A stretch of 64,000 nt of DNA from assembly GCF_029714305.1 (NCBI RefSeq), contig NZ_CP121647.1:4670501-4734500 (forward strand). The letters are read 5' to 3'. The stretch is from Bradyrhizobium sp. CB3481. GTDB lineage: Bacteria; Pseudomonadota; Alphaproteobacteria; Rhizobiales; Xanthobacteraceae. The notes beneath the pieces are model-generated. The model was given only the letters and a program-made list of their open reading frames with translations. It searched no databases and was not told the DNA's origin. The position numbers and the translations under genes were made by a program. Shown here one piece after another: positions 36,330 through 39,424 of the stretch (within the stretch, counting starts at the first letter, position 1; every line of letters begins with the position of its first letter).

Positions 36330-37949
36330 TCAGGCCTTCTTCTTCACGTCTTTGACGTTGGAGAAATTGATCCCCTCGGCGCGCTCGCGGGTGTAGCCGA
36401 GATAGAACTCGTTCTTGGCCATGAACACCGGATCGCCATCGACATCGTCGGCGATCCCCGAACCATTGGCGGCAATGAAGGCGTCGAGCTTTTTGCGGTC
36501 ATCGGACGAGACCCAGCGCGCGAGCTGGAACTCCGACACTTCAAATTCCACCGGCAGCGAATATTCGGCGTCCAGCCGCGCCTTGAGCACGTCGAGCTGC
36601 AGCGGGCCGACAACGCCGACCAGCGCCGGCGCGCCGTCGCGCGGCCGGAATACCTGCACGACGCCTTCTTCCGACATCTGCTGCAGGGCCTCTTTCAGCT
36701 TCTTCGCCTTCATCGCATCCGTCAGGCGAACGCGGCGAACAATTTCCGGCGCGAAGCTGGGAACGCCGACGAAGGTGATGTCTTCGCCTTCGGTCAAGGT
36801 ATCGCCGATCCGCAGCGTGCCGTGGTTCGGAATGCCGACGACGTCGCCGGCAAAGGCTTCGTCCGCCACCGAACGGTCCTGGGCGAAGAAGAACTGCGGC
36901 GACGACAGCGACATGTTCTTGCCGGTCCGCACCAGTTTTGCCTTCATGCCGCGGCTGAGCTTGCCGGAGCAGAGGCGCGCAAACGCGATGCGGTCGCGGT
37001 GGTTGGGATCCATGTTGGCCTGGATTTTGAACACGAAGGCGCTCATCCGCGGCTCCGCGGCCTCAACCTTGCGAATGTTCGAATCCTGCGCCCGCGGCGC
37101 CGGCGCGAACTTGCCGAGACCCTCGAGCAGATCGCCGACGCCGAAATTGCGCAGCGCGCTGCCGAAATAGACCGGCGTCAGATGTCCCTCGCGAAACGCA
37201 TCGAGATCGAACGGCTTGCAGGCTTCCGAGACCAGCTCCAGCTCTTCCTTAACCTGCCCGACATCCAGATTGGCATTGCGGCCGGCGAGATCGGCGATAT
37301 CGATCTGCTCGGTCGCGCCGGTCTTGGCGCCGCCGCCTTCCAGCAGCCGCACGCCGCCATTGACGACGTCGTAGGTGCCGAGGAAGTCGCGGCCGCGGCC
37401 GACCGGCCAGGTCATCGGCGTGGTGTCGAGCGCCAGCGTCTTTTCGATCTCGTCCAACAGCTCGAACGTATCGCGGCTCTCGCGGTCCATCTTGTTGATG
37501 AAGGTGATGATCGGAATGTCGCGCAGCCGGCACACCTCGAACAATTTTCGCGTCCGCGCCTCGATGCCCTTGGCGGCGTCGATCACCATGACGGCGGAAT
37601 CGACCGCGGTCAGTGTGCGGTAGGTGTCTTCCGAAAAGTCCTCGTGGCCCGGCGTATCCAGCAGATTGAAGACGAGGTCCTGGAACTCGAACGTCATCAC
37701 GGAGGTCACGACCGAGATGCCGCGCTCGCGCTCGATCTTCATCCAGTCGGAACGGGTGTTGCGCCGCTCGCCCTTGGCCTTGACCTGCCCCGCCAGGTTG
37801 ATGGCGCCGCCGAACAGCAGCAGCTTTTCGGTCAGCGTAGTCTTGCCGGCGTCCGGGTGGGAGATGATCGCAAACGTGCGGCGGCGCGCCACTTCCTCTG
37901 CAAGCGGCGAGCGGGACGGCGATTCGGCTGATACGGCGATGTCGGACAT
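36330..37949 (-). CDS. prfC: peptide chain release factor 3
   Basis: 539 aa GTPase that recycles RF1/RF2 after translation termination. G1 is HPDAGKTTLTE (about residues 32-42), the switch region ERERGISVVTSVM, G3 DTPGHEDFSEDT, and G4 INKMDRE. The domain order and length are those of RF3 rather than EF-G or TypA. It is divergent from the guanidine riboswitch/gdx transcript, with 155 bp between start codons. Confidence 0.97.
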   Translation of the reverse strand: MSDIAVSAESPSRSPLAEEVARRRTFAIISHPDAGKTTLTEKLLLFGGAINLAGQVKAKGERRNTRSDWMKIERERGISVVTSVMTFEFQDLVFNLLDTPGHEDFSEDTYRTLTAVDSAVMVIDAAKGIEARTRKLFEVCRLRDIPIITFINKMDRESRDTFELLDEIEKTLALDTTPMTWPVGRGRDFLGTYDVVNGGVRLLEGGGAKTGATEQIDIADLAGRNANLDVGQVKEELELVSEACKPFDLDAFREGHLTPVYFGSALRNFGVGDLLEGLGKFAPAPRAQDSNIRKVEAAEPRMSAFVFKIQANMDPNHRDRIAFARLCSGKLSRGMKAKLVRTGKNMSLSSPQFFFAQDRSVADEAFAGDVVGIPNHGTLRIGDTLTEGEDITFVGVPSFAPEIVRRVRLTDAMKAKKLKEALQQMSEEGVVQVFRPRDGAPALVGVVGPLQLDVLKARLDAEYSLPVEFEVSEFQLARWVSSDDRKKLDAFIAANGSGIADDVDGDPVFMAKNEFYLGYTRERAEGINFSNVKDVKKKA

Positions 37950-38036
37950 GAGGCGTGCGTTTGACAGGGAAAGGTGGGCTAATCAAGCCTCATTTGGTGG
38001 TTGCAGCGGCCTGTGGCCAGTCCCATATCGGCGTTG

Positions 38037-38086
38037 GGAAGGACGGCCTTCCATTTCGCAGCTCAATCCCGCGGGGACGACCCTGC
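38037..38086 (+). promoter_or_regulatory. guanidine-II (mini-ykkC) riboswitch
   Basis: Two adjacent perfect 6-bp hairpins, each capped by an ACGR tetraloop: P1 GGAAGG-ACGG-CCTTCC (38037-38052) and P2 GCGGGG-ACGA-CCCTGC (38071-38086, one G-U pair), joined by 18 nt. This is the full defining architecture of the mini-ykkC motif. The Shine-Dalgarno GGAGG begins 8 nt after P2 and the gdx ATG is at 38105, so control is probably at translation. A -35-like TTGACA is at 37961-37966. The downstream exporter family is the known target. Confidence 0.9.
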
Positions 38087-38104
38087 CATTTTCGGAGGGT
38101 TGTC

Positions 38105-38428
38105 ATGGCCTGGATCGTGCTGTTCGTCGCCGGCCTCATGGAAGTGGGCTGGGCGATCGGCCTCAAATATACCGAGGGCTTTACGCGGCCCGTTCCCTCC
38201 GTCCTGACGCTCGCCTGCATGGCGGGCAGTATCCTCCTGCTCGGGCTTGCCTTGAAATCACTGCCGATCGGAACCGCCTATGCGGTGTGGACCGGGATCG
38301 GCGCGGTCGGAACGGCGATCCTGGGCATCGCGCTGTTCGGCGAGCCGGCGACCGCCGCCCGCCTCGCCTGCATCGGCCTGATCGTCGCCGGCATCGTCGG
38401 TCTCAAGCTCGTCACCGGATCAGCGTAG
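38105..38428 (+). CDS. gdx: SMR-family guanidinium exporter Gdx (SugE)
   Basis: 107 aa, four transmembrane helices, dimeric small multidrug resistance-type antiporter. The conserved membrane glutamate is in [20 protein letters not shown], about residue 13, and [14 protein letters not shown] is typical of the Gdx subfamily, which exports guanidinium. The start is the ATG right after the riboswitch and its ribosome site; the frame is open further upstream but would read through the riboswitch. It overlaps the convergent Pit gene by 9 bp. Confidence 0.94.
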
Positions 38429-39424
38429 CGCCAGCGCGGCCCAGTAGGTCAGCGCGGCCACGATCCCGGACGCCGGAATGGTGATCACCCAGGCATAAAC
38501 GATCGAGCTCGCCACATTCCAGCGCACCGCCGATACCCGCCGTGCGGCGCCGACGCCGACAATGGCGCCGGTAATGGTGTGGGTCGTGGAGACGGGAACC
38601 CCGAGAAAGGTCGCCATGAACAGGGTCGCCGCCCCGCCGGTTTCGGCGCAAAAGCCCTGCATCGGCGTCAGCTTGGTGATCCGCAGCCCCATGGTGCGGA
38701 CGATCCGCCATCCCCCCATCAGCGTGCCGAGGCCCATCGCCGCCTGGCAGGAGATCACGACCCAGAACGGGATGTTGAAATCGGCGCCGAGATGGCCCTG
38801 CGAATACAGGAGCACAGCGATGATGCCCATGGTCTTCTGCGCATCGTTGCCGCCATGGCCGAGCGAATAGAGCGACGCCGAGGCGAATTGCAGGATGCGG
38901 AAGGCGCGGTCGACCGCGAACGGCGTCGAGCGCACCGACAGCCAGGACACGATCGCCACCAGCACCAGCGCCAGCAGAAAGCCGACCAGCGGCGACAGCA
39001 CGATCGCCAGCAGCGTCTTTGACAGGCCGCTCCAGACCGCCGCGGAAATGCCGGCCTTGGCCATGCCGGCACCGACCAGTCCGCCGATCAGCGCGTGCGA
39101 GCTCGACGAGGGAATGCCGAGCGCCCAGGTGATCAGGTTCCAGACGATGGCGCCGACCAGCGCCGCGAAGATGACGGTCGCGTCCACGACATCAGGCTCG
39201 ATGATCCCCTTGCCGATCGTGTTGGCGACGTGCAGCCCGAAGACCAGAAACGCAACGAAATTGAAGAACGCGGCCCAGATCACCGCGTATTGCGGGCGCA
39301 GCACGCGGGTCGATACGATCGTGGCGATCGAATTGGCGGCGTCGTGCAGTCCGTTGAGGAAATCGAACAGCAGCGCGACTGCGATCAGAAAGATCAGAAT
39401 CGGAAGGCCAAGGGAGGCGTCCAC
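38420..39424 (-). CDS. Pit-type inorganic phosphate transporter
   Basis: 334 aa, about ten hydrophobic segments, the normal size for the PiT family. Repeated GANDxxK-like motifs are seen as [23 protein letters not shown] near the N-terminus and [15 protein letters not shown] near residue 195, with [16 protein letters not shown] near 275. Likely low-affinity phosphate/metal symport. It lies downstream of the DUF47 gene with a palindromic repeat between them, the usual pairing. Confidence 0.95.

Follow-up and report, generated by a model that had tools for sequence, protein, structure and literature searches.

A conserved Guanidine-II riboswitch, most likely a translational ON switch, in the leader of the chromosomal gdx gene of Bradyrhizobium sp. 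CB3481

Introduction

Riboswitches of the Guanidine-II class (mini-ykkC, Rfam RF01068) are built of two GC-rich hairpins with ACGR loops, which are joined by a linker and lie near the ribosome site of a gene for an SMR exporter. The linker is given as 7–40 nt long (PMC7544219), and the class has been described as a translational switch which promotes initiation (PMC12186494). For the Guanidine-II RNA of Gloeobacter a potential, mutually exclusive stem loop has been reported which overlaps P2 and the ribosome site (PMC5486947). The riboswitch class, its pairing with the exporter gene and a proposed mechanism were thus already in print (PMC5486947, PMC12186494), and the initial annotation of the DNA analyzed here rightly treated class and target as established. 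The Guanidine-I, -III and -IV riboswitches respond to the same ligand and control similar target genes (PMC12186494), but their architectures differ from that of the element described below.

On the protein side, the guanidinium site of the exporter Gdx-Clo comprises E13, W16, S42, Y59 and W62, and position 16 is a conserved W in the Gdx subtype, whereas it is Gly or Ala in Qac (PMC7695847).

For rhizobia, an RF01068 prediction has been tabulated for Mesorhizobium huakuii (PMC5596092). From the titles matching our literature search no published guanidine riboswitch in Bradyrhizobium was evident; the riboswitch words searched for are absent from the main text of a B. japonicum ncRNA paper (PMC5082802), and no literature pairing "mini-ykkC" with "Alphaproteobacteria" was found. 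Here we describe a Guanidine-II element in a stretch of 64,000 nucleotides from the chromosome of Bradyrhizobium sp. CB3481, in the following called the window, and compare it with its counterparts in related genomes.

Results and discussion

The features of the locus are compiled in Table 1. The covariance model RF01068 matches at positions 38035–38085 of the plus strand with 33.7 bits, a narrow margin above the gathering score of 32 (E = 0.0057 for the whole window), and this bears out the mini-ykkC assignment of the initial annotation. It is the sole Rfam match within the window to reach the gathering level and the sole match at E ≤0.001 to this model in the 8.04-Mb genome, so that no second Guanidine-II motif was found there at this threshold (150 of 1582 first-look candidates scored). 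Around the element, between 37950 and 38150, no other Rfam family matched at E ≤1. Guanidine-III was likewise not found in the genome at E ≤0.001 (150 of 1990 first-look candidates scored).

Table 1. Features of the gdx locus (window positions)
Feature	Positions	Strand	Details
prfC, upstream neighbour	36330–37949	opposite to gdx	
P1 hairpin, Guanidine-II aptamer	38037–38052	+	GGAAGG-ACGG-CCTTCC; RF01068 alignment
P1–P2 linker	38053–38070	+	18 nt
P2 hairpin	38071–38086	+	GCGGGG-ACGA-CCCTGC; 6-bp stem, loop ACGA; RF01068 alignment
P2 loop and 3' arm	38076–38084	+	GACGACCCT; candidate anti-Shine-Dalgarno strand of the OFF state
Shine-Dalgarno sequence of gdx	38094–38099	+	GGAGGG; from sequence
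Shine-Dalgarno part and flank to the start codon	38096–38104	+	AGGGTTGTC; 3' strand of the proposed OFF helix
gdx (sugE-type SMR guanidinium exporter, predicted)	38105–38428	+	107 aa; NF008512, PF00893, PDB 6wk5
PHO4-family phosphate transporter gene, downstream neighbour	38420–39424	-	

The locus had been described as two perfect 6-bp hairpins with ACGG and ACGA tetraloops, 18 nt apart, just 5' of the ribosome site of an SMR gene. Loops, spacing and coordinates agree with our analysis, as does the placement directly before the GGAGGG sequence and the ATG at 38105, 18 nt of sequence lying between P2 and this start codon. Both stems are indeed of 6 bp; P1, with its ACGG loop, is Watson–Crick paired in all six positions, whereas P2 has five Watson–Crick pairs and one G-U pair (38073–38084), and therefore "perfect" holds for P1 only. 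ACGR loops on GC-rich stems, a linker length inside the published range and the position relative to the gene are thus all found here as in other members of the class. As details of its own the element shows the 18-nt linker, the G-U pair of P2, which is conserved (see below), and a proposed OFF strand which includes the P2 loop.

Such an arrangement is rarely expected by chance. A search of both strands of the 64-kb window for two ACGR hairpins of at least 5 bp spaced 7–40 nt apart returned this pair and no other. When the 64 kb were shuffled 100 times with dinucleotides kept, such pairs numbered 0.01 on average (at most one), and none appeared when stems of at least 6 bp were demanded.

The gene product belongs to the SMR family (PF00893) and scores 145.6 bits with the SugE equivalog model NF008512, whose curated cut-off is 126. 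Its best match in the PDB is the SMR chain 6wk5, over residues 1–103; we take 6wk5 to be Gdx-Clo. E13, W16, S42, Y59 and W62 are all present in the product with the same numbering. Both the score above the curated cut-off of the SugE/Gdx model and the Gdx-specific W16 place the protein in the Gdx subtype, in line with the initial annotation. The equivalog match, the similarity over residues 1–103 and the five binding-site residues are what the protein shares with the known Gdx/SugE exporters, as far as can be told from its sequence. At E ≤0.001 no PF00893 gene other than gdx was found in the genome.

With a GTG further upstream, at 37955, as its start, the gdx frame would run through the riboswitch. 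We prefer the ATG at 38105 because of the spacing to the Shine-Dalgarno sequence and because the close copies start with the same MAW. At its other end gdx overlaps the convergent transporter gene by nine bases (38420–38428), 38428 being the last base of the gdx stop codon.

Between 37940 and 38460 no promoter-like site of the sigma-70 type was found and no intrinsic terminator was seen. Terminator control of gdx was therefore set aside, and the result fits translational rather than terminator control.

Elsewhere in the same genome, outside the window, we noticed a ykkC-type RNA (L063:1936–2041, corresponding to G000:C1:6507935–6508040). It scores 55.2 bits, under the Guanidine-I cut-off of 63, and lies 42 nt 5' of an EamA-like gene which has a below-cut-off match to phn_DUF6. 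A reading as a second guanidine switch was rejected; the RNA in this setting matches the published description of the orphan ykkC subtype 2d (PMC7266159).

We then asked how far the element is conserved. For this purpose 60 Bradyrhizobium genomes were drawn evenly from a larger number, which gave 126 protein rows; a homologue of the gdx protein is present in 56 of the 60. The close copies, defined by at least 80% identity and including the window's own, number 50 and come from 48 of the 60 genomes; all of them were examined. Leaders above the RF01068 gathering score were found for 38 of the 50 (19/20, 12/20 and 7/10 by batch). The remaining 12 fall below it; in some of them a loop is altered or a stem is broken. 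The initial annotation had asked for the two hairpins in orthologous leaders, and two ACGR hairpins of at least 5 bp are present in 42 of the 50 (44 at 4 bp or more), against a mean of 0 in shuffled leaders. More distant homologues make up 76 rows at ≤71% identity; in the 20 of these that were scanned, neither an RF01068 match nor the two hairpins occurred. With 38/50 close and 0/20 distant leaders carrying it, the riboswitch goes with this particular gdx lineage. Whole-genome scans of 60 relatives gave RF01068 matches at E ≤0.001 in 29 genomes, in 28 of them above the cut-off.

A second set, the best 80 homologues from named genomes with Bradyrhizobium among them, extends this picture. Two ACGR hairpins of at least 4 bp precede the gene in 46 of these best 80, against a mean of 0.04 after shuffling, and in 38 the stems have at least 5 bp. 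Beyond Bradyrhizobium they are found, among these 80, in both Devosia records, in Rhizobium (L165, L174, L178), in Azospirillum endophyticum (L166) and in Methyloversatilis (L176). None of the three Variovorax records in the set has intact hairpins, and each of the five Bosea records (L122, L126, L137, L149, L150) has one intact hairpin.

In the 50-row alignment of close leaders pairing is kept in 98.3% of the P1 and P2 cells. Three pairs of P1 show changes on both sides, with 11 double-changed cells in total; shuffling gave a mean of 2.1, and none of 500 shuffles reached 11. The stricter measures, taking P1 and P2 together, are weaker: 31 of 500 shuffles equalled the three double-changed pairs and 30 of 500 the eight further pair types, these controls ignoring the relatedness of the leaders. 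Compensatory changes are thus seen in P1 only, P2 being nearly invariant in the 50 close leaders; its G-U pair is kept in 49 of the 50. We also tabulated the pairs over 85 distinct two-hairpin leaders of 130, in which the linker ranges from 13 to 38 nt. Since inclusion required 4-bp stems, only pairs 5 and 6 are unbiased in this table; they form in 79 and 73 of the 85 leaders in P1, and in 82 and 79 in P2.

Several close leaders (L048, L050, L058, L059, L079, L082) carry damaged aptamers, with loop changes such as ACGC or AGGC or with a broken stem, while gene and ribosome site are kept. Possibly these are cases of natural loss of guanidine control. Some of this damage, for example the AGGC loop of P1 in L059 and the broken P2 stem in L082, would also be expected if the hairpins were generally a decayed, non-functional remnant. 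For the window, however, where the two hairpins have intact loops and stems and where P1 pairing has been kept through changes in the close copies, we consider such a remnant highly improbable. What the window carries is a real and conserved riboswitch of the Guanidine-II class, placed before its customary target gene.

From its membership in this class the aptamer would be expected to bind guanidinium cooperatively and to raise expression. A related guanidino compound such as methylguanidine or aminoguanidine might instead be the natural signal, and the binding of both to Guanidine-II RNA has been cited as differing from that of guanidine by at most fourfold (PMC5486947). Against this stand the agreement of both loops with the ACGR consensus and the gene for a Gdx-type exporter downstream, so that we regard a different signal as quite unlikely and retain guanidinium as the probable ligand.

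How the gene could be controlled is suggested by the fold of lowest energy predicted for its leader in the window. In this structure the loop and 3' arm of P2 (38076–38084) are paired with positions 38096–38104, and the Shine-Dalgarno bases are almost fully paired. Since this helix and the P2 hairpin share 38076–38084, the two are mutually exclusive. We propose that at low guanidinium the P2 strand would pair with AGGGTTGTC and hide the ribosome site. As guanidinium accumulates, P1 and P2 would kiss through their ACGG and ACGA loops, which bind two guanidinium ions in doing so. The kissing loops would hold P2 as a hairpin, the Shine-Dalgarno strand would be freed and the exporter would be made. 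We are highly confident that the 5' leader of the chromosomal gdx gene carries a Guanidine-II riboswitch of this general kind, most likely a translational ON switch.

The potential for the OFF helix is widespread within the genus. Among the close leaders 48 have a recognisable P2 core; all nine helix pairs are possible in 29 of these and eight in 12 more, which makes at least eight of nine pairs in 41 of 48. When everything apart from the Shine-Dalgarno core and the start codon was shuffled, the duplex of P2 strand and flank was better than 95% of the shuffles in 32 of 44 testable same-genus leaders. In the OFF helix the U which pairs with G in the P2 stem would lie opposite the A of the Shine-Dalgarno AGGG, and thus the conserved G-U may reflect one base serving both states.

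It may be that the Guanidine-II aptamer is real but that control does not run through pairing of the P2 strand with the Shine-Dalgarno sequence; the kissing loop could alter ribosome access sterically, for example, or act through mRNA decay or Rho-dependent termination. Three observations point in this direction. The OFF helix is without covariation, there being no changes on both sides, a value as high as which was obtained in 500 of 500 shuffles. More distant leaders, L165 and L178 for example, show weaker complementarity. Finally, when P1 and P2 are forced in a 91-nt model, the fold loses 10.2 kcal/mol of stability relative to the free fold and frees the Shine-Dalgarno site only partly, the unpaired probability dropping from 0.95 to 0.01 along the site. 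These values were calculated without the energy of the kissing loop and of the ligand. Either the switch would have to act during transcription, where co-transcriptional folding could favour P1 and P2, or the model misses these energy contributions. The OFF helix being part of the minimum-energy fold and its pairs being formable in most same-genus leaders speak against control without it, which we judge unlikely on balance, if clearly less so than the other alternatives considered here. In the named-genome set the duplex surpassed 95% of the shuffles in 16 of 45 leaders among the best 80 homologues, and the exact helix therefore looks lineage-specific. Thus translational control is likely, while the OFF helix in its exact form is offered as a model.

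L083 is one of the two most divergent close copies (80% identity). Its bases before the start codon differ, reading GGCGTCCC, and by eye they look able to pair, with one bulge, to the opposite half of P2 (GGGACG-A-CC). In this leader the ribosome site could be hidden in the same way in a different register, judging from the complementarity.

Finally, we surveyed 297 genomes of the order with RF01068, using the stricter filters of Infernal, and obtained matches in 75 genomes at 82 places. The next gene was sorted at 73 of these by BLAST, with one or two proteins as references for each kind of gene; the nine places left out are all below the cut-off. A gdx-like gene follows the motif at 37 of the 73 loci, a DUF1989-type gene at 15, a PACE-type gene at 15 and another gene at six.

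Four same-genus genomes (L002, L004, L005, L010) have a second, stronger Guanidine-II motif of 42–50 bits directly before a DUF1989-type gene; PF09347 was confirmed for one of these four genes.

The 15 loci with genes of the PACE family (PF05232, "chlorhexidine efflux") are L012, L017, L022, L200, L202, L212, L213, L227, L228, L231, L233, L237, L241, L246 and L247. They span five families of the order, and the motif lies within about 30 nt of the gene, some of the distances being approximate. PF05232 was confirmed on three of the 15, and all nine riboswitches which were rescanned are above the Rfam cut-off. No report of a guanidine riboswitch before PACE genes was found by title in our search, which did not extend to the founding paper of the class; the passages of PMC10149990 consulted contain none either, "PACE" is absent from the main text of an SMR review (PMC9574504) and the PACE words searched for are all absent from PMC7736828. 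The association suggests that the riboswitch-linked PACE proteins may be exporters of guanidinium or of guanidino compounds. Tentatively, one riboswitch class would have three outputs in this order, Gdx, DUF1989 and PACE, with the PACE proteins so controlled as a further family of guanidinium exporters, unrelated to Gdx; we regard this as possible, at somewhat less than even confidence.

Conclusion

Since class, gene pairing and proposed mechanism are already in print, the riboswitch of the window is in itself an ordinary one. It is a modest addition, a well-supported switch for the waste compound guanidine before the one SMR gene that was found in the genome of this rhizobial soil bacterium, and this placement makes it probable that guanidine stress really occurs in that niche. 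The PACE association, if it holds, is of more interest than the window element itself, since a guanidine riboswitch in front of these genes would point to a candidate natural substrate of the PACE family. Chlorhexidine is built of guanidine-like (biguanide) groups. If the PACE proteins so controlled do export guanidinium, the handling of chlorhexidine by PACE pumps would have a natural explanation.
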